Assembly (NCBI GenBank): GCA_002695065.1
Contig: NZNW01000148.1
Coordinates: 1 to 64,000 of the forward strand
DNA: 64,000 nucleotides
Direction: 5' to 3'
Source: Salinicola sp.
Lineage (GTDB): Bacteria > Pseudomonadota > Gammaproteobacteria > Pseudomonadales > Halomonadaceae
Below the pieces are notes generated by a model, which did no database searches, was not told where the DNA came from, and saw only the letters and a program-made list of their open reading frames with translations. Of this stretch, positions 33,456 through 41,646 are shown in pieces. Position 1 is the stretch's first letter; the number at the start of each line of letters is the position of its first letter. Position numbers and translations under genes: made by a program.

Positions 33456-33532
33456 GCCCGAATAGCTCAATTGGATAGAGTACCGGCCTTCGAAGCCGTG
33501 GGTTGCAGGTTCGAGTCCTGCTTCGGGCGCCA
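33456..33532 (+). tRNA. tRNA-Arg (anticodon UCG)
   Basis: 77 nt with encoded CCA. Acceptor GCCCGAA pairs with TTCGGGC, D stem GCTC/GAGT, T arm GCAGG-TTCGAGT-CCTGC. The anticodon loop CTTCGAA places TCG at 33490-33492, reading CGA. One C-T mismatch in the outer anticodon stem. Its 3' end is the left attachment site of the island (33514-33528). Confidence 0.93.
33514..33528 (+). repeat. Left copy of 15-bp direct repeat (attL candidate)
   Basis: AGTCCTGCTTCGGGC inside the 3' end of tRNA-Arg, identical and in the same orientation as 41495-41509. tRNA 3' ends are usual integration sites. Confidence 0.75.
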
Positions 33533-33819
33533 GTCCCTCGCTCCCGCGTTGACGACCTTCCGCAGTGACGACTTTGCTCGCGAGCTGCGGATATGCAGCG
33601 GTATTCGAGACACTCTCTTCCCCGCCGTTCCTTCTCATTCCCGGTCCATGCAATACCCTCGTGGTATAGCGTATGGTCTATCGCCTGTTCGAATTCGAGC
33701 GCTATACCAGGACGCCCCTGGCCGCCCGCCAGCTCGAGAAGCCCAGCCTGTACCCCGAAGCTCAAACCTTGGGCAAGGCAGGCGTGGCCGGCGCAAGCCA
33801 CCAAGCGCGTAGTGGTGAC

Positions 33820-34770
33820 TTACGGCTCCGGCATGCCGGGGGTGGTCAGGCTGAAATGACGGGCCTCGTCGAGCAGCCAGTCGATGAACTCGCGAATCCC
33901 TGGCGGCGGCTTGCCGTTGTCGGGGATGACCAGTTCATAACGGAACGGAGACGGCAGCATCCATCGATCGCCGAACGGGCAGGTCAGGACGCCGCTGACC
34001 AGACGGTCCGCGACCACCGGCAGGCTGGCGAGGATCAGGCCGCGACCCGCGATGACCTGATCCAGGGCGAGGCCATACAGCGAGTAGTGACGCAAGGTCG
34101 GAAGCGGCTGCCCGGCCAGGCCCGCCGCGGAAAACCAGTCTCTCCAGTTCGGAAAGCCGCCACTCCCCGACGTCGACCAGCAGACATCGAACAGGGTGTG
34201 TGCCAGCAGGTCTTGTGGCCGTTCGATGGGCCGGTGGTCGAGCAGTGTCGGCGAGCAGACCGGGACCAGTACATCTCCGAACAGTGGCAGCGTGCTGACG
34301 CCGGGCCAGGGCGGCCTGCCGTAGCGCAGTGCCAGACGGGCGTCCGTATCGTGCCAGCTGGGTTCGCTAAGCGCCTGGCTGGCGTCGATCGAAATCTCCA
34401 GCTGGCGGTGGCGGAGTTCGAAATCGGCCAACCGTGGCAGCAGCCACAACTGGGTGAAAGAGGGTGGTGCGCTGAGCAGCAGGCGGGTGACGTCAGGCGT
34501 GATATTGGCGATCGCTTCCATGCCGACCGCGATACGTGCCAGACCGGCATCGACATCCTCGGCCAAGCGTCTTCCGGCGGCCGTGGTTCTGACACCGTTG
34601 GCATGGCGCTCGAACAGCGTCACCGTCAGACGCTCCTCGAGCTGCTTGATCTGACGGCTGACCGCCCCAGGCGTGACACCCAGTCGGTCTGCCGCCACCT
34701 TGAAGCTGCCCTCGCGAGAGGCCGCTGCGAGGGCTCGCAGGCCATTGAGAGGCAGGCGTTCGATCTTCAT
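33820..34770 (-). CDS. LysR-type regulator (GcvA-like)
   Basis: LysR protein of 316 aa: MKIERLPLNGLRALAAASREGSFKVAADRLGVTPGAVSRQIKQLE is the HTH, then a substrate-binding domain. It is of the GcvA/AmpR-like branch (LPLNGLRAL). It is divergent from the DMT transporter, so it probably controls it. Ligand unknown. Lies in the tRNA-bounded segment but has high GC like the core genome. Confidence 0.88.
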   Translation of the reverse strand: MKIERLPLNGLRALAAASREGSFKVAADRLGVTPGAVSRQIKQLEERLTVTLFERHANGVRTTAAGRRLAEDVDAGLARIAVGMEAIANITPDVTRLLLSAPPSFTQLWLLPRLADFELRHRQLEISIDASQALSEPSWHDTDARLALRYGRPPWPGVSTLPLFGDVLVPVCSPTLLDHRPIERPQDLLAHTLFDVCWSTSGSGGFPNWRDWFSAAGLAGQPLPTLRHYSLYGLALDQVIAGRGLILASLPVVADRLVSGVLTCPFGDRWMLPSPFRYELVIPDNGKPPPGIREFIDWLLDEARHFSLTTPGMPEP

Positions 34771-34921
34771 GAGTTGAGTTTTCCTGAGCCTGGCCCTGCA
34801 AGATAATCGCTTGGCGGCCCAGGCGGCAAATGGTCCACTTCCCGACCTGGTTCATCGGATTTCCAGGCACGGTGGAGATAGCGCCGATGCCTGTGTGAGC
34901 CGTATCGAGGGGGGAGGTCCC

Positions 34922-35848
34922 ATGTCTTGTTCTTCCGCATCATCCACAGCCGGCGCGGCGTTACCGACGCGTCGTGCCATCGATGTGCCGGCCGGCGCGG
35001 CCATGGTGCTGTTCTGTGTGGCGCTGGGCCTGCAGCAGGTGGCGATCAAATCGGCCGCGGCGGACATTGCGCCGCTGAGTCAGATTGCGCTGCGTTCGAT
35101 GCTGGCGGCCATTCTCATATGGGGGCTGGCGGCCCTGCGAGGCATCCAGTGGCGTGATTTCGTGGCGGGCCTCGGGCCGGGGATACTGGTTGGCCTGGGC
35201 TTTACCTTCGAATTCGTGTTCGTGGCATTGGGGCTCCACTACACCACGGCATCTCACATGTCGGTCTTCCTGTATACCGCGCCGGTATTCGCGGGCCTGG
35301 GGCTGCATTTCCTGGTACCCGGAGAACAGCTGGCCAAGCGCCAGTGGTGGGGCATGGCGCTGGCCTTTGCGGGCCTGGTACTCGCCATGGCGCCCAGCGG
35401 CGAGGGCGCGAATGCGGGTGCCATGTTGGTGGGGGATATCTTCGGTCTACTGGCGGGCATGAGTTGGGCGGCCACGACGTTGGTGCTGCGGCGTACCTCG
35501 TTGTCGGAGGCGCCGCCGCTGCAGACCCAGGGTTATCAACTGCTGACCGCAGGCGTGCTGTTGTTGCCGGTGGCGCTGTTCAGCGGCGATCTTGCGGCGA
35601 TACGATTCAGTTGGATCGCCGTTACCAGCCTAGCCTTCCAGACGCTGGTGATCTCCTGCGCGGCGCTGTTGCTGTGGTTCGCGCTACTGCGCCGGTACTG
35701 GGCATCGCAGCTGGGGGTATTCTCGTTTCTGTCGCCCATCTTCGGGGTGATGTTTGGCGCACTGCTGCTTGATGAACCGCTGACCGTCAGTTTCCTGGTC
35801 GGCGGAGCCATGCTGTTGGCCGGAATCGTCACTGTCTCACGCGGCTAA
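34922..35848 (+). CDS. EamA/DMT-family transporter
   Basis: Ten-helix drug/metabolite exporter of 308 aa with two EamA repeats (about 30-155 and 165-305). Segments FVALGLHYTTASHMSVFLYTAPVFAGL and SPIFGVMFGALLLDEPLTVSF are typical. ATG at 34922 with GGGGGGAGG upstream. Divergent from the LysR gene. Substrate unknown (amino acids or similar). Its stop is three bases from the start of the truncated GNAT gene, so the 3' end is a recombination joint. Confidence 0.88.
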   Translation: MSCSSASSTAGAALPTRRAIDVPAGAAMVLFCVALGLQQVAIKSAAADIAPLSQIALRSMLAAILIWGLAALRGIQWRDFVAGLGPGILVGLGFTFEFVFVALGLHYTTASHMSVFLYTAPVFAGLGLHFLVPGEQLAKRQWWGMALAFAGLVLAMAPSGEGANAGAMLVGDIFGLLAGMSWAATTLVLRRTSLSEAPPLQTQGYQLLTAGVLLLPVALFSGDLAAIRFSWIAVTSLAFQTLVISCAALLLWFALLRRYWASQLGVFSFLSPIFGVMFGALLLDEPLTVSFLVGGAMLLAGIVTVSRG

Positions 35849-36150
35849 ACCTCAACGACATCGTTCGCGGCGCGCTCCAGTCCGCGTATCGCGGTGACTA
35901 CGCGCTCGGCCCGAACCAGGGCAAAGGGCTGATGAAGGAAGCGTTGAGCGCCGTGATCTCCCGCGCCTTTGGCGAACACGAGCTTCATCGGCTGGAGGCC
36001 AACATTCAGCCAGACAATGTGCGGTCGGCTGGCCTGGTCAAATCCCTGGGCTTTCGCTTGGAGGGGTATTCCCCGCGGTACCTGAAAATCGATGGGGAAT
36101 GGAGAGATCACGAGCGCTATGCGATCACGTCGGAAGAGTGGGCTGCGTAG
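35846..36150 (+). pseudogene. GNAT N-acetyltransferase, 5'-truncated (RimJ-like)
   Basis: A reading frame from about 35846 gives LNLNDIVRGALQSAYRGDYA, then NQGKGLMKEALSAVI, ending YLKIDGEWRDHERYAITSE. This is the middle and C-terminal part of a RimJ-type ribosomal-protein acetyltransferase; the first 70 or so residues are missing. The frame enters directly from the end of the DMT gene. An internal ATG at 35932 would give only 72 aa without the acetyl-CoA loop entry. Probably non-functional. Confidence 0.75.
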
Positions 36151-36220
36151 GCAGCCGCAGCCCGCGACTGGCCCAAAGACACCCGAACGTAGCCGCCGCC
36201 TGAGCGCGCCCTGTGGGCAG

Positions 36221-36943
36221 TCAAACCCTGGCGTCGGGTGACCGTGCACAACATGACGAACGGGACTTGCAGCAGGTCTCGTCATCCGACCTGTCAGGGG
36301 GAATCGAAGGCTTGTTTGCCTTGTCTGGATCCGTGTTTCGCCACGCCGCCCATGCCTCGGTCGAGACCTGCCAAGCTGAATGCAGGAAGAGCGCCGCAAT
36401 GGCCAGACCGACTACCACATCGGGCCATACCGTGCCGGTCACGCCGACGGCTATTGCAGCCAGAACCACGCTGGTATTCGCGATGAGATCATTGCGCGAA
36501 CAGAGCCAGGTCGAGCGCATGTTGAGATCCGCCGAGCGATAGCGCAGCAGCATGATGAAACAGACCGTGTTGGCGGCCAGCGCCAGCATACCCATGATCC
36601 CCATCGCGCCGGCCTCTGGCACGCTGCCGACCACGCTCTTGTGGATCGCCTCGGCAATGACCGCTAGACCGAATACGAACATGAACAGGCTTTTGACCAG
36701 CGCTGCGCCGGCTCGCGTTCGATCACTTCGGTTCAGCGCGTATAGCGTCAGCACGTAGACGGTGGCGTCGCCGAACATATCGAGCGAGTCTGCCAATAGC
36801 GCCGTAGACCCGATCAGCCAACCCGCCACGAACTCGATCACGAACATCGAGCCGTTGATACCAAGCACCCAGTACAACACCTTGGCCTGCGCGCCCCGCA
36901 ATTGCGCCAGCTCGCCAGCCTTGTTCTCGCAGCAGGAATCCAT
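36221..36943 (-). CDS. Cation diffusion facilitator (metal efflux)
   Basis: Membrane protein of 240 aa with about six helices: VLGINGSMFVIEFVAGWLIGSTALLADSLDMFGDATVYVLTLYAL is TM1-2 with the CDF metal-site Asp/Asp motif (DSLDMFGD). It starts MDSCCENK and ends in a Cys-rich tail (TCCKSRSSCCARSP). It exports Zn, Cd or a related divalent metal to the periplasm. AGGAGG precedes the ATG. It lacks the usual large cytoplasmic domain, so it is a short CDF. Divergent from the MerR gene. Confidence 0.85.
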   Translation of the reverse strand: MDSCCENKAGELAQLRGAQAKVLYWVLGINGSMFVIEFVAGWLIGSTALLADSLDMFGDATVYVLTLYALNRSDRTRAGAALVKSLFMFVFGLAVIAEAIHKSVVGSVPEAGAMGIMGMLALAANTVCFIMLLRYRSADLNMRSTWLCSRNDLIANTSVVLAAIAVGVTGTVWPDVVVGLAIAALFLHSAWQVSTEAWAAWRNTDPDKANKPSIPPDRSDDETCCKSRSSCCARSPDARV

Positions 36944-36973
36944 GCCAGTGCCTCCTCGAATGATTGGCTGATA

Positions 36974-37003
36974 GCATGAAGGTTCTAGCCGCTATAGGGT
37001 CAA
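36974..37003. promoter_or_regulatory. MerR-type operator and divergent promoter
   Basis: Read leftward, TTGACC (complement of 36998-37003) is followed by CTATAGCGGCTAGAACC, close to the cadA/pbrA operators TTGACCCTATAGTGGCTACAGGG. MerR regulators act on such over-long (19-20 bp) spacers. The left half-site is imperfect. Confidence 0.65.
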
Positions 37004-37008
37004 GCATC

Positions 37009-37407
37009 ATGGAATCCCGGATAACCATCGGTCAGCTTGCCAAGGCCACCGACACCAAGGCGGTGACCATCCGTTATTACGAAAGCGCGGAGCTACTCTC
37101 GCCGGTGACCAGAACGGAGGGTGGCTATCGCCTCTACACGGATCGGGAGCGGGATCGCCTGATCTTCATAAAGCGCGCCCGTCATCTGGGGTTGAGCCTG
37201 GAAGACGTGAAATCGTTACTCGGGCTCGCCGATGACGAGAACGCACCGTGCGGGCAGGTCGACTCGATCATCCACGAGCAGCTGGAGCGAGTCAGGTCGA
37301 GGCTGAAGGATCTACAGCAACTGGAACGGGAACTCGACCGGCTCAAGCAATGCTGCCAGGCGGACACGGTGGCCGACTGCAAAATCATCGAGTCGCTCTC
37401 GCGGTGA
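37009..37407 (+). CDS. MerR-family metal-responsive regulator (CadR/PbrR-like)
   Basis: 132 aa: N-terminal winged helix MESRITIGQLAKATDTKAVTIRYYESAELLSP, then a dimerisation helix and metal-site cysteines: C in NAPCGQVD (about residue 80) and CCQADTVADC near the C-terminus, the CadR/PbrR-type arrangement. It senses Cd, Pb or Zn. Start at 37009 gives MESRITIG; an earlier ATG exists. It is divergent from the CDF gene, which it probably activates. Confidence 0.88.
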   Translation: MESRITIGQLAKATDTKAVTIRYYESAELLSPVTRTEGGYRLYTDRERDRLIFIKRARHLGLSLEDVKSLLGLADDENAPCGQVDSIIHEQLERVRSRLKDLQQLERELDRLKQCCQADTVADCKIIESLSR

Positions 37408-37870
37408 CAGCGGCGAATGGGTGGCCACGCCCCTGTGGCCACCATCCTGCCCTCATCTCGGCGTAACCTGCCGGCGCGCTGTCGACTCCCCGCCCCGCCT
37501 GCGCGCTAAATGGGTCGATTCTGATGCAGTGATGCGGGTTGCTGCGAGCCGCGCCAGCACTGGGGCGGTGGGGCGATTTGGGGCTCTAGAAAACGATGCG
37601 CAATGATGCACTTTGCTACCTACACGACCAAAGATGATGGGATGCCGATAGAGAAGTGAAACGGAATGTGGCAGATTGATACTAAAGGTATTCCATATAA
37701 GGCTGCAGTAAGCTTGAATTTACCGACTAATCAAAGAAGGTTATCCGTATTGCAGCATCATGAAGGCGAGAAGGAGAGCTCTTCTTCGAAAAAGTATCGT
37801 GGCCGTACCTCCTGAGCGAAAAAATGGAGTTTAGAGCATAACTGTTAACAAAATATTTGGAGGTAATGGC
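37408..37870. other. Gap at the junction of GC-rich and AT-rich DNA
   Basis: 463 bp. Base composition changes from GC-rich to AT-rich between about 37580 and 37650. A 49-codon open frame (37666-37815, MWQIDTKGIPYKAAV...) is possible but not significant in length. No promoter is assigned. Contains GGAGG at 37859-37863, the ribosome-binding site of the SIR2 gene. Confidence 0.5.
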
Positions 37871-39157
37871 TTGATTAATTTTAGAAAAGGCAATAAAGAC
37901 CAATTTTCCAAGCTTGATCCGGATGCGACGTTTGAAGAACGGGCCGTAGTGATTAGGCGTAATCTAGCCGAGGTGTTCGGGTCTAAGAATTTATCGTTTC
38001 TTATTGGTTCGGGATGCTCGTCATATGTTGAGGATGGCGAAGAGCTTGGGATTCCAACTATGGGGCCATTGGCGAGAGAGTTTCAGTCGAATTTCCCAAC
38101 AGCTTTTGATTTCCCCGAAGATGATGCCTATATCACGTTTGAGCAGAAAAGCACTCTGAAAGAAAAGCTTGGAATCGATCTAGAACATCCAGACTTTCGA
38201 AAAAATATCGAACGAATGATGGAAGTTTTAATGACTGCGCATCAGTTTTGCACTGCCAGTGATAAAAAAGATGCTCAGAGTGCGCTTCCTGTTGTTGAAG
38301 CTGTTATCGCTGGGGTGAAGAAGTTTATCCTCAAGAAGTGTGCGGATGGCGAGTTTGCCCACGGCGACGAGACCGTGGTCTCACTTTACCGACGCTTCTA
38401 TCTATCTCTTGCTACCCGTTCTCGTGGTCTTTCGCCGCCTTGGGTCTTTACAACGAATTACGACCTCTTTAATGAAAGGGCGATGGACCGGTCTAGTATT
38501 CCTTATTCAAACGGATTCTCTGGCACCGTCGAACGTCGATTTAATCCTTCTACATATCGAAGAGCGCTAGCTGAGCAGCTTGATATTTCATCGAAAAGAT
38601 GGGCGGCGGTTGATGGTTATATCCACTTCTGTAAGCTTCATGGCTCTCTAAACTGGACAGAGGAGGAACGTGGGCTTTTCCCAATACGAGAGTCGGCCGA
38701 GAAGCTTGATCCTATTCAAGATCGCGTCATGATTTATCCAACGCCCTCAAAGCAAACGGCCAGTTTTGGTTCGCCTTACTCTGATATGTTTCGTGAGTTT
38801 CAACGTCAGATAGTCCAAGATCAGAGTGTTCTTCTTGCAATGGGGTTTAGTTTTGGAGATGAACACATAAATAATATTATATTTCAGGGTTTGACTCTGC
38901 CTAGTTTTAGACTAATAGTCTTTCTTAACCCTGATGATGGAAGCAATCGAGTGGTCGGAGAGCTAGCGTCGCTAGGCGATCCCAGGATCTGGTTTATTTG
39001 GGGTGAAGACGAGGAAACTGGCAAAAAAGCTCATTATTTTTGCAATTTGGTGCAAGATTTAATGCCGACCGGCGCTGACCAGAAAGAAGATAGAGCCATA
39101 GGTGAGGTTCTTAAGAAGTTGCTTTCGAAGCAGCAAGGTGATCATGATGTCGAGTAA
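37871..39157 (+). CDS. SIR2-family antiphage NADase (SIR2-HerA system)
   Basis: SIR2_2-type protein of 428 aa, NAD-binding core: SFLIGSGCSS (G46-S50), WVFTTNYDLFNERAM (N196, D198), FCKLHGSL (catalytic H257) and late AMGFSFGDEHINNI. Such SIR2 domains deplete NAD upon phage infection. TTG start at 37871 with GGAGG 7 bp upstream. AT-rich with codon use unlike its neighbours. Its end overlaps the start of the HerA gene by about 14 bases, as in a translationally coupled pair. Membership in a known defence pair is by gene family and order, not tested. Confidence 0.85.
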   Translation: MINFRKGNKDQFSKLDPDATFEERAVVIRRNLAEVFGSKNLSFLIGSGCSSYVEDGEELGIPTMGPLAREFQSNFPTAFDFPEDDAYITFEQKSTLKEKLGIDLEHPDFRKNIERMMEVLMTAHQFCTASDKKDAQSALPVVEAVIAGVKKFILKKCADGEFAHGDETVVSLYRRFYLSLATRSRGLSPPWVFTTNYDLFNERAMDRSSIPYSNGFSGTVERRFNPSTYRRALAEQLDISSKRWAAVDGYIHFCKLHGSLNWTEEERGLFPIRESAEKLDPIQDRVMIYPTPSKQTASFGSPYSDMFREFQRQIVQDQSVLLAMGFSFGDEHINNIIFQGLTLPSFRLIVFLNPDDGSNRVVGELASLGDPRIWFIWGEDEETGKKAHYFCNLVQDLMPTGADQKEDRAIGEVLKKLLSKQQGDHDVE

Positions 39158-41192
39158 CGATGCTAGCCGAGCCATAGGTAAGATCGTTAGTGTTTCTGCT
39201 GATCGCTTGGTCGTTGAGCTACATAGGGGGAGCGACAATTTCACTGTTGTTGGCTTCGATGATGTGCACTACGTAGCGACCTTGGGCTCATGTCTAATAG
39301 TACCAACGCAATCTGAGTATGTAGTTTTGGAAGTCATTGGCCTTCGGGAAAAGGATTTGTCGACAGCGTATGAAACCGGACCGGAAATGAACAAGGCGAC
39401 GGCAGCCAAGTTTCTCGATGTGGTGCCAGTCGGCTCGATGCCCGTCCAAGAGGGATTATTTAAGTTCGGGGTCTCAACCTTCCCGCCACTCTACGCTGAC
39501 GCCCTCTATGCACGTGACGAGGATTTAGATCGCATCTTCAACGTAGATCAACTAGCTGAAGATGTGACGAAAGCTGATGCCCAAGGCGAGGAAAAGCGTG
39601 GCACGGTGCCCCATGTATTTGAGATTGGCACATCGGCTGTATTTAAGAACTATCCCGTTAAGGCGCAACTCGATGCCTTTTTCGGCGGACACGTCGCAGT
39701 ACTAGGTAATACCGGAAGTGGAAAGTCATGTACCGTGGCATCAATTCTTCAGTCCGTGTTCATACGGGCTGAAGAATTTAAGGCCATTGGCGCTTCGTTT
39801 GTCATCCTTGATGTCAACGGTGAGTATCGAGCAGCATTTGAAAATATGCCATGGCATATTTACGCTAGTTATTTTAAAGCTACTAGAACCGCCGCCGAGG
39901 CAGAGGGGATTGAAGAAGGGTATTTAGGGGCTAGCTTAGTAGAACGCTTTCTTTTGCCACACTGGTTTATGACTGTGGATGAATGGGTTCTTTTGCTCAG
40001 AGCTAGTGAAAAAACACAACAGCCAGTACTAAAAGCTGCTCTCGGGCTTACTACTCTTTTCTGTGAAGGCTCAAGATCCAAAGAAATTTCCGAGACGAAT
40101 GGCTCGCTAATCGATCTCCAGAATCATGTGTTGGCCAAGATTATTTTAGCTATTCTCCATGACGATTCTAGTATACCAAGTAAAGAGGGGCGCGTTCTTG
40201 CTGTTCTTCAGGTTTTTTCAACTTTAGAGATTTCAAGGCAAACTGTTAAGCGTGGATTGTACAATGATTTTGGCAAGTTCAAAGACGGGGATAAAATAAA
40301 TAGTGCGGTCAACTATGAAGCTTTGCTAGAACTCCTAAATTCTCATGTCCAGGATGAACCGACGCTTCCCGCCTATGGTAACGTCCCATTCTCTTTCGAA
40401 TACCTGCAGTCCGCGCTTGATTTGGCGATTTTGTATGAGGAGTCGAACGGCAATAAGCAAATAAGGGAGTATTGTTCGCAATTGGTGACGCGACTGAAAT
40501 CCGTTTCTGATAACCCCGACTTCGAATTTCTTCGTACACCAGTTGGAGATATTGAGCAGCATTGTAGGGAATCCGGCTATTTTGTAGATCGTCTTCTGGG
40601 TATCGAACCCAGCGGAAAAGAGTATGTCAAAGAGCGCCAAATATGCATTATTGATTTAAATGATGCCTCAGACGAGATTGTTGAGCTCGTTTCTGCTGTT
40701 GTTTCAAGATTGATATTTGATCGTTTGCGCTACGCCATTCCTAGAAATAGGATGCCCGTTCATCTAGTGCTAGAAGAGGCCCATCGCTATATTTCTGAGC
40801 GTTCCAGTCGTTTTGCTATAGATGCTAGTGTCATTTTTCATCGAATTGCTAAAGAAGGTCGTAAATATGGCGCTTTCTTGATGGTGGCTTCGCAGAGACC
40901 AAGCGAACTCTCAAAAACGGTGCTCTCGCAGTGTAATAATTTTATAGTTCACCGAATTCAAAACCCTGATGACCTTTCTCAGATAAGACAAATGACGCCT
41001 TTTATATCGGAAACAGTTCTAAAGCGTCTTCCGTCTTTGCCCAAGCAACATGCTTTGATTTTTGGGAGTGCTGTTAAAATACCTACGACCTTTCGTGTCC
41101 GGGATGCTTGTCCTAAGCCCAATAGTGATGACACGCAGATACGGGATCTTTGGTATATTCCCGAAAATCCCAAGCTAGACTGGAGTTTATAA
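39144..41192 (+). CDS. HerA-like hexameric ATPase (SIR2-HerA system)
   Basis: HerA/FtsK-type ATPase of 682 aa: N-terminal HAS-barrel-like region (GKIVSVSADRLVVEL), Walker A GNTGSGKS with K194, Walker B region VHLVLEEAHRY, arginine-finger-type segment RIAKEGRKYGAFLMVASQRP. HerA assembles with SIR2 into a large complex that controls NADase activity and DNA sensing. ATG at 39144 or 39147 (AAGGTG upstream fits the second better). Lower GC than the core. It precedes no further defence gene. Confidence 0.88.
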   Translation: MMSSNDASRAIGKIVSVSADRLVVELHRGSDNFTVVGFDDVHYVATLGSCLIVPTQSEYVVLEVIGLREKDLSTAYETGPEMNKATAAKFLDVVPVGSMPVQEGLFKFGVSTFPPLYADALYARDEDLDRIFNVDQLAEDVTKADAQGEEKRGTVPHVFEIGTSAVFKNYPVKAQLDAFFGGHVAVLGNTGSGKSCTVASILQSVFIRAEEFKAIGASFVILDVNGEYRAAFENMPWHIYASYFKATRTAAEAEGIEEGYLGASLVERFLLPHWFMTVDEWVLLLRASEKTQQPVLKAALGLTTLFCEGSRSKEISETNGSLIDLQNHVLAKIILAILHDDSSIPSKEGRVLAVLQVFSTLEISRQTVKRGLYNDFGKFKDGDKINSAVNYEALLELLNSHVQDEPTLPAYGNVPFSFEYLQSALDLAILYEESNGNKQIREYCSQLVTRLKSVSDNPDFEFLRTPVGDIEQHCRESGYFVDRLLGIEPSGKEYVKERQICIIDLNDASDEIVELVSAVVSRLIFDRLRYAIPRNRMPVHLVLEEAHRYISERSSRFAIDASVIFHRIAKEGRKYGAFLMVASQRPSELSKTVLSQCNNFIVHRIQNPDDLSQIRQMTPFISETVLKRLPSLPKQHALIFGSAVKIPTTFRVRDACPKPNSDDTQIRDLWYIPENPKLDWSL

Positions 41193-41646
41193 ATTGTTCT
41201 AGTGCAACCTCCTTACAGCTTCGGACAAAATAATTTCCCTCCATGTGGGGAACACGCACAGACCGATAACGATCCTTCTCCACTGAGAGCGCCGCATTTG
41301 TAACCAGGGGGCCGCATGAAAGATCCGTTGGTTGGCTCATATCATCCTGTGAACCTCGGTTGATGTCGCAAACGGCCTCCTTTATGAGGGTGAGCGTGAT
41401 CCTTTGGTTCACCCCTAGGGTATACTAGGAGGCATACCTTGCTGCATATCTTTCTAGTTAATCCATATAAATCATGTGCTTGATGCTATTTTATAGTCCT
41501 GCTTCGGGCTTCGTCTCTGCTTATGGCACAAGCCACCGGCTTATTAGTTATTCCTGCTGATACGGCACGTCCAGTAACACGAACCATTTTCTTCGCTCTA
41601 TCTATCGACCAATACCCAATCCTGATCGAGGGATGGCGTCGCTAGA
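41193..41646. other. Gap holding the right island end
   Basis: 454 bp AT-rich without a supported gene. It holds the right copy of the 15-bp repeat at 41495-41509. A 99-codon frame on the minus strand (41113-41412) overlaps the HerA 3' end and looks like no family I know. Confidence 0.5.
41495..41509 (+). repeat. Right copy of 15-bp direct repeat (attR candidate)
   Basis: AGTCCTGCTTCGGGC, identical to the tRNA-Arg 3' end at 33514-33528 and in direct orientation, 7,981 bp apart. The following bases (TTCG) differ from the tRNA GCCA, which may be decay. Confidence 0.75.

Follow-up and report, generated by a model that had tools for sequence, protein, structure and literature searches.

A probable decayed P4-type phage satellite with SIR2-HerA defence cargo at a tRNA-Arg gene of Salinicola

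The window analysed here is a stretch of 64,000 nucleotides from Salinicola sp. (Halomonadaceae; assembly GCA_002695065.1, contig NZNW01000148.1), and the subject of this report is the island that lies within it at positions 33533-41509, at the 3′ end of a tRNA-Arg gene with the anticodon TCG. Judged from its sequence, this island is very probably a decayed P4-type phage satellite that has kept its cis-acting sites together with its defence cargo, a SIR2-HerA gene pair. The evidence consists of the attachment sites attL and attR, a cos (packaging) site, the stub of an integrase gene, complete satellites at the same tRNA gene of related bacteria and cargo that belongs to defence families, all recognised by sequence comparison; decay with retention of the defence genes appears to be the likeliest history. 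The comparison set comprises the window genome (an assembly of 4,682,890 bases in 153 contigs, 96% complete) and 17 genomes of the same genus, 18 in total; genomes are denoted by G, the stretches compared by L and contigs of the window genome by C.

Attachment sites and satellite ends

The tRNA-Arg(TCG) gene that serves as the integration site (33456..33532, plus strand, as are all features below unless stated otherwise) was delineated with ARAGORN, and the same tRNA is occupied in relatives. The original prediction held that the 3′ end of this gene is repeated exactly and in the same orientation about 8 kb away, and that chance is a very unlikely source of such a repeat; both statements stand. 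The 15-mer AGTCCTGCTTCGGGC, located by an exact repeat search, occupies positions 33514..33528 within the tRNA gene (attL core) and 41495..41509 (attR core) on the same strand, and it does not recur many times in the genome, which holds only these two exact copies in 4,682,890 bases (a backwards control pattern has none); by our own arithmetic, an exact 15-mer would be expected within 8 kb by chance with a probability of about 1e-5. The attR core is preceded by an AT-rich shoulder that forms the right end of the satellite (41467..41494), and sister islands located at three tRNA-Arg genes have this motif in the corresponding place, ahead of the tRNA repeat. Furthermore, the repeat tracks the end of the local tRNA gene (CTTCGGGC or CCTCGGGC variants at TCG, other 15-mers at CCG and CCT), copies of the local tRNA end lie behind cos in the sister islands, and the repeat is found with at most two mismatches in 7 of 7 complete satellites. 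Given the uniqueness of the 15-mer in the genome and the sister loci, a chance origin of the repeat was rejected as having next to no probability, and the comparison shows the right copy to be attR of a P4-type satellite family. In having its far boundary marked by a direct repeat of the tRNA 3′ end, the window island resembles tRNA-borne integrated elements.

The left end is also recognisable. Positions 33533..33708, directly behind the tRNA gene, represent a satellite left end on the attL side that is common to the island of G001 (blastn of left ends), and the local alignment of 33557-33708 to L034 scores 183, against 29 for the best of 200 shuffles. This segment runs into an integrase gene stub (33709..33751), in which approximately the first 13 codons remain and the rest is lost: 33617-33751 align to the left end of L046 through the start of int (score 58, against 28 for the best of 200 shuffles), and likewise to that of L037 (50, against 29 for the best shuffle). 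Intact copies of the stubbed gene exist in relatives. Because the left-end homology extends into the start of int and because a pair of genes for a cation-efflux (CDF) transporter and a MerR-family regulator holds the same place as in the satellite of G011, the window island is read from these alignments as both ends of a satellite with the middle replaced. The earlier claim that the island is tRNA-borne and has no visible integrase is upheld and refined, in that an integrase stub and the left and right ends of an L037/L046-type satellite are kept.

Complete satellites reside at the same tRNA-Arg(TCG) in G011 (L037) and G014 (L046), and both have the order integrase (165 bp behind the tRNA), AlpA, a conserved unknown protein, Toprim primase, DUF927, a Psu/Sid-like protein, slot 1, cos, cargo (slot 2) and attR. 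In phmmer searches, homologues of the P4 integrase, alpha and AlpA proteins are detected in all 6 complete elements tested, Sid is matched weakly in 4 of these (E 8e-5 to 1e-3) and delta very weakly in 2 (E 0.002-0.004), and psu and epsilon yield no match in any of the 6; at the profile level, L037 matches the Psu-like PHROG 6165 (E 6.5e-14). The window island retains only the integrase stub, with AlpA and the alpha primase absent; psu, sid, delta and epsilon did not turn up among its open frames and were sought no further there. Contig C124 of the window genome (L055) contains another element with cos, AlpA, Toprim and DUF927, the tRNA and int of which are probably on contig C57. Just outside attR of a complete satellite on contig C136 lies a class A beta-lactamase-like frame (L056 4216-5283; named by eye).

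The cos element and the defence cargo

The region behind the tRNA is highly variable across the 17 relatives, most of which possess a conserved element of about 225 bp that is also found elsewhere in the genomes. In the window, this element (37470..37694), delineated by its recurrence in relatives and by matches to phage cos sites, ends where the cargo begins. Its first 40-110 bp correspond to the cos region and the remainder is satellite-specific; the cohesive-end-like core of 19 bases, of type 1 and intact, is located at 37481..37499 (cos alignment and core searches). The element aligns to the cos sites of P4 (score 35, against 24 for the best of 100 shuffles) and P2 (34, against 26 for the best of 100 shuffles), and scores higher with Halomonas phage vB_HboP_4908 (82, best shuffle 25), Enterobacter phage ENT4, the record of which is flagged as unverified (70, best shuffle 26), and the Peduoviridae member Aeromonas phage LPM4 (62, best shuffle 24). 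Nine stretches retrieved with the element are P2-like prophages, one of them in the window genome, and in all nine the copy lies 0.1-2.0 kb past the portal gene, with only the first 40-100 bp matching; in the P2 record, cosL is annotated as 19 bases and cos flanks the portal gene. The exact core occurs in 34 copies in 15 of the 18 genomes (backwards control, 0), and the stretches fetched include P2-like prophages from 8 of the 18 genomes. Taken together, the alignments, the prophages and the core search identify a cos site common to P2-like phages and the window element. The interpretation of the element as mere host sequence was dropped after the phage cos matches, and a small reading frame that starts in it diverges just past the element in the compared copies, so that the element is taken as noncoding.

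Several observations concern the cos sites and prophages of the genus more generally. The P2-like prophage on contig C62 of the window genome (L130 9949-14089) has a type-2 cos and the window island a type-1 cos; because the types differ, this prophage may not be the helper of the window island. Tandem cos-like sites about 300-330 bp apart are found on C136 of the window genome (L056 8501-9045) and in L107, L103, L117, L120, L134, L102, L124 and L127, and L106 has two cos-like sites at a wider spacing of about 1.9 kb; several of the tandem pairs combine both types known from P2-like prophages in the genus, broken and hybrid copies also occur, and the arrangement is possibly a means of using two helpers. 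In vB_HboP_4908, an annotated transposase (PQ368759.1 3313-5094) lies between scaffold and portal, the place of the P2-like large terminase, and its relatives occupy that place in the nine prophages.

The cargo of the window island consists of genes for a SIR2 defence protein (37871..39157; PADLOC PDLC04084, 5.5e-169) and for the HerA ATPase of the SIR2-HerA pair (39147..41192; PADLOC PDLC04102, 5.2e-277), both of full length compared to their homologues. In a search of genome contigs that detects only close relatives of HerA, 14 loci were confirmed, in 12 of which SIR2 lies beside HerA (aligned in two pieces in two of the 12). Nine of the 14 come from Rhodobacteraceae or from genera akin to them (62-78% identity), and in 8 of the 14 HerA is 72-78% identical. 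Within the host family, SIR2 matches are present in 23 of 250 genomes, the window's own included, none of them a close relative of the cargo protein (apart from the window's own, the best two reach 34% and 39% identity). Since the closest HerA pairs belong to Rhodobacteraceae and kin and the matches within the family are poor, the SIR2-HerA pair was probably acquired from afar.

Slot 2 could be delimited at both ends in 26 of the 35 islands with cos in the census described below. Its GC content is 0.38-0.55, lower than that of the right flank in all 26 and lower than that of the part preceding cos in 25. The whole slot is shared by a single pair of islands, L117 and L120; the other 26 pairs among the matches listed share 0.5-1.0 kb, probably a GNAT acetyltransferase gene near attR. 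From the 57 reading frames listed for slot 2, 10 from 10 islands were scanned with PADLOC (1e-8) and 10 with Pfam (1e-5). PADLOC assigns 7 of its 10 proteins to defence families (ThsB-like TIR, AriA/Old/GajA-like, two HamB, PsyrT-like helicase, NsnA and ShosT) and yields no match for the other 3 at that threshold, and Pfam matches 9 of 10, adding an Mrr nuclease, a CAP12-type TIR, SIR2-STAND, an OLD-like protein with a UvrD helicase and a protein kinase, with 1 of 10 unmatched. The window SIR2-HerA pair, as identified by these profiles, fits a slot 2 filled with defence cargo. Related GNAT genes in reverse orientation to the cargo lie near attR in several CCG and CCT islands (L055 2821-3309, L098 16921-17373, L108 16771-17289, L109 2361-2813, L102 3121-3618, L104 17645-18097 and L056 5578-6069, the last of which looks broken) and may mark a fixed end of slot 2.

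In the working that we propose for this family, a tyrosine integrase specific to one tRNA-Arg would recombine the circular satellite into the tRNA 3′ end, yielding attL as the restored tRNA and attR as a displaced copy of its end. Upon activation of a P2-like helper, the satellite would be excised and replicated by its own primase, and the helper terminase would package it from the cos site; the genes between cos and attR would be exchangeable anti-phage cargo. In the window copy, the block from integrase to Psu would have been deleted, with other genes now lying between the left end and cos, and SIR2-HerA would have been retained, presumably through protecting the cell; by analogy with Nezha, the pair would deplete NAD+ on phage infection. 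Within this scheme, the dependence on a helper, the packaging step and the succession of events are inferred.

Decay, composite origin and movement in trans

The distribution of such islands was assessed in a census of the tRNA-Arg genes TCG, CCG and CCT in the 18 genomes, that is, 54 loci picked by the tRNA alone. A cos element in the same orientation lies downstream at 35 of them (TCG 14/18, CCG 10/18, CCT 11/18); four stretches (L038, L121, L131 and L158) have less than 5 kb downstream, and in L162, which has all five machinery proteins, the contig stops before any cos. When tested for int, AlpA, the conserved unknown protein, Toprim and DUF927 (tblastn, E up to 1e-6), 7 of the 35 islands match all five, 4 match one to three or pieces and 24 match none, the window island being one of the 24. 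For the window's own tRNA, cos is present in 14 of 18 genomes and machinery in 2 of 18. Outside the census, L099, L111, L113 and L115 possess cos-like sites with no tRNA-Arg in the stretch, and L169 and L170, which extend L111 and L113, are again without tRNA and without machinery. All 7 complete satellites carry at least one exact copy of the 19-base cos core, against 13 of the 24 gene-less islands (Fisher p 0.033; with the element of C124 included, 8/8 vs 13/24, p 0.029), and attR with at most two mismatches is found in 7 of 7 and 11 of 24, respectively (p 0.025). The stretches searched for attR differ in length (0.7-17.5 kb), a bias towards detection in complete satellites. Both sets of figures lean towards decay, although they are sensitive to the criterion and ignore relatedness.

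Several observations weigh against the interpretation of the window island as a decayed P4-type satellite. Only int, AlpA and primase are clear among the P4 core genes of the family, with Sid, Psu and delta weak or recognised by profile only and epsilon not found. The GC-rich genes at 33820-37407 are not accounted for by a single event, and TauE lies inside the island in G001 and outside it in the window, so that the locus was evidently rebuilt repeatedly. The attL, attR and 19-base cos core of the window island are all intact, so that rescue in trans is conceivable. With a 23-base core, the comparison becomes 5 of 7 vs 11 of 24 (p 0.39), so that the cos-based argument for decay is fragile; the integrity of cos as proof of decay, which holds for the 19-base but not for the 23-base core, is weakened accordingly. 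Finally, none of the 17 relatives has an empty allele of the exact locus.

The original prediction had looked to relatives with the tRNA joined directly to the sequence after 41510 for proof of the boundaries; none was found, and the junctions come from sister loci instead. Across the 18 genomes, the flank to the right of 41468 matches only in G005, behind another cargo, and in an 80-bp piece of G011, and none of the 17 relatives carries the entire segment 33533-41494 with the same flanks. At the CCG locus, G015 has the tRNA joined straight to the sequence that flanks the island in G013 (93.0% identity over 886 bp, counted from the repeat's first base). In G010, the sequence flanking a complete satellite corresponds to that which comes directly after the tRNA in G005 (94%) and G007 (91%); a new satellite was therefore inserted there ahead of an older remnant. 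The set yielded no empty allele for most of the remaining islands with attR.

The repeat was also expected to lie at the end of an AT-rich segment, which is the case; however, the AT-rich part starts near 37.6 kb and not at the tRNA. In 1-kb windows, the GC content is 0.61-0.66 over 33-37 kb and 0.43-0.48 over 38-41 kb (0.63 from the tRNA to cos, 0.45 in the AT-rich stretch with SIR2-HerA). Hence the island has two parts, and delimiting it by GC alone was rejected, as the AT-rich part (37.7-41.5 kb) spans only the cargo slot from cos to attR. The part in front of cos encodes a LysR-type regulator (33820..34770, minus strand; PF03466/PF00126), which adjoins the tRNA also in G007 and G010, an EamA-family transporter (34922..35848; PF00892), the truncated C-terminal part of a GNAT acetyltransferase (35851..36150; PF13302 positions 84-138 of 138), the CDF transporter (36221..36943, minus strand; PF01545) and the MerR-family regulator (37009..37407; PF13411/PF09278). 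A composite origin, in which only cos-SIR2-HerA-attR (37470-41509) forms one unit, 33533-37407 being host DNA or separately inserted, and in which the tRNA and the right repeat would not delimit a single integration event, would agree with the GC change near 37.6 kb, with the various combinations of LysR-EamA and CDF-MerR in relatives and with the serial insertion at one tRNA-Arg demonstrated in G010. We nevertheless regard it as improbable, given that the satellite left end and int stub lie directly behind the tRNA and that CDF-MerR precede cos directly inside the complete satellite L037 of G011, both at 96% identity.

In slot 1, G007 and G010 carry about 1 kb of additional sequence before the truncated GNAT gene, which in the window (35848-36150) adjoins the EamA stop; on account of this extra sequence, a deletion probably occurred in the window at the junction of the EamA stop and the GNAT remnant. 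Other slot-1 genes (for a LysE-type exporter and a racemase-like protein, named by eye) precede cos in L055 8505-10000, on contig C124, and in L120 12230-13726, the CCT island of G011, where they are 95.4% identical over 1685 bp; such similarity suggests that genes of slot 1, too, move between tRNA sites.

The original prediction left the choice between a decayed island and one moved in trans. According to the second view, the gene-less islands are working cis-only elements for which attL, cos and attR suffice, movement being provided by matching satellites, through their integrases, and by P2-like phages, through their capsids. The intact sites of the window copy would fit this scheme, as would the retention of the exact cos core and of attR (at most two mismatches) in 13 and 11, respectively, of the 24 islands without machinery among the 35. 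Further support comes from a 5.59-kb island at tRNA-Arg(CCT) that is 96.1% identical between G010, where it is without machinery, and G011, where it has an int stub only: the identity stops about 20 bp past the start of attR, the 2.6 kb of upstream chromosome are 79.6% identical and no downstream similarity was found. However, the left deletion ends in G010 and G011 differ, and separate arrival and decay of complete elements are possible; 11 of the 24 gene-less islands have lost the cos core, which all 7 complete ones keep (again subject to the p of 0.39 under the 23-base criterion). P4 capsids hold approximately 11 kb, next to which elements of 4-8 kb are small. The source of an integrase presents another difficulty. 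Ten full-length integrases (those of L103 and L120, being too short, were excluded) group by tRNA, with 90% identity within the TCG type (2), 85-97% within CCG (6), 98% within CCT (2) and 60-70% between types. The best integrases of the window genome are one of CCG type and one of CCT type, each 62% identical to the TCG type, followed by three matches at 24-28%; for this reason, movement in trans is less likely than decay for the window copy. Overall, we consider it rather unlikely that the gene-less islands are working elements of this kind, and favour a decayed satellite.

A broader proposal, to which we give slightly less credence still, is that the genus harbours a class of cis-only satellites, which would consist of attL, cos, attR and a defence gene, lack any integration or replication gene of their own and rely for movement on P2-like phage capsids and on the integrases that complete satellites supply at the same tRNA-Arg. 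If so, members with two cos sites about 320 bp apart, several of them of both cos types, could use either helper, and such satellites would be one travel route for integrase-less defence islands.

Relation to known systems

P4-like elements have been defined in Enterobacterales, and variants without integrase are mentioned there (PMC8628076). As described in PMC8628076 and PMC9122126, the P4-like satellites of Enterobacterales resemble those of the present genus in their related integrase, primase and AlpA, P2-type cos, anti-phage cargo directly beside cos and integration at tRNA genes; P2-like prophages are likewise found in the genus. Compared to P4 as described there, the genus satellites belong to another bacterial family, have a primase split into Toprim and DUF927 proteins, carry int on that side of att where the replication genes lie, with the cargo placed between cos and attR, and use three tRNA-Arg targets with matching integrase types; several islands have two cos sites, psu (by phmmer) and epsilon were not found in the genus satellites, and the window copy is without any machinery. 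PMC9122126 places the P4 defence hotspot directly beside cos, includes SIR2 and HerA in the cargo list and speculates on exchange via cos ends. Variable defence genes also adjoin cos in the hotspot of P2-like phages (PMC9122126), but the window island is devoid of phage structural genes and is located at a tRNA, bounded by satellite ends. In open-licence literature, no P4-like elements linked to Halomonadaceae were found, a search for phage satellites with Halomonas returned that name only inside a reference, and no two-cos satellite is named in titles or abstract starts among the matches listed.

The adjacent genes for a SIR2-like protein and a HerA-type ATPase resemble Nezha, a system of a SIR2-like protein and a helicase that depletes NAD+ according to PMC11559045; in contrast to the system described there, the window pair is closest to those of Rhodobacteraceae and kin and is a predicted defence system. 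Defence genes at tRNA hotspots without recognised mobility machinery recall the defence islands of E. coli, where, according to PMC10121019, 68% of the cases at one hotspot lack a detectable mobile element, though many of these contain integrase or recombinase genes; the islands shown there typically keep an integrase, whereas the window's residual cos and att ends reveal the former vehicle. Elements that lost their recombinase and move in trans are discussed in PMC11389934; the loss of the recombinase and the retention of cis sites are common to these trans-mobilised hitchers (such as CALIN and MITE) and the window island, but the recombination systems are different from those covered there and mobilisation of the window island is hypothetical.

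Defence islands without recognised mobility machinery are common. Two cis sites, the tRNA repeat and cos, reveal the vehicle of the window island, and a combined search for cos and a repeat of the tRNA end could spot such islands where gene-based finders detect little. Whether they are dead or rescued in trans thereby becomes a testable question. The findings extend P4-type satellites with P2-type cos to another bacterial family, with one integrase type for each tRNA-Arg.

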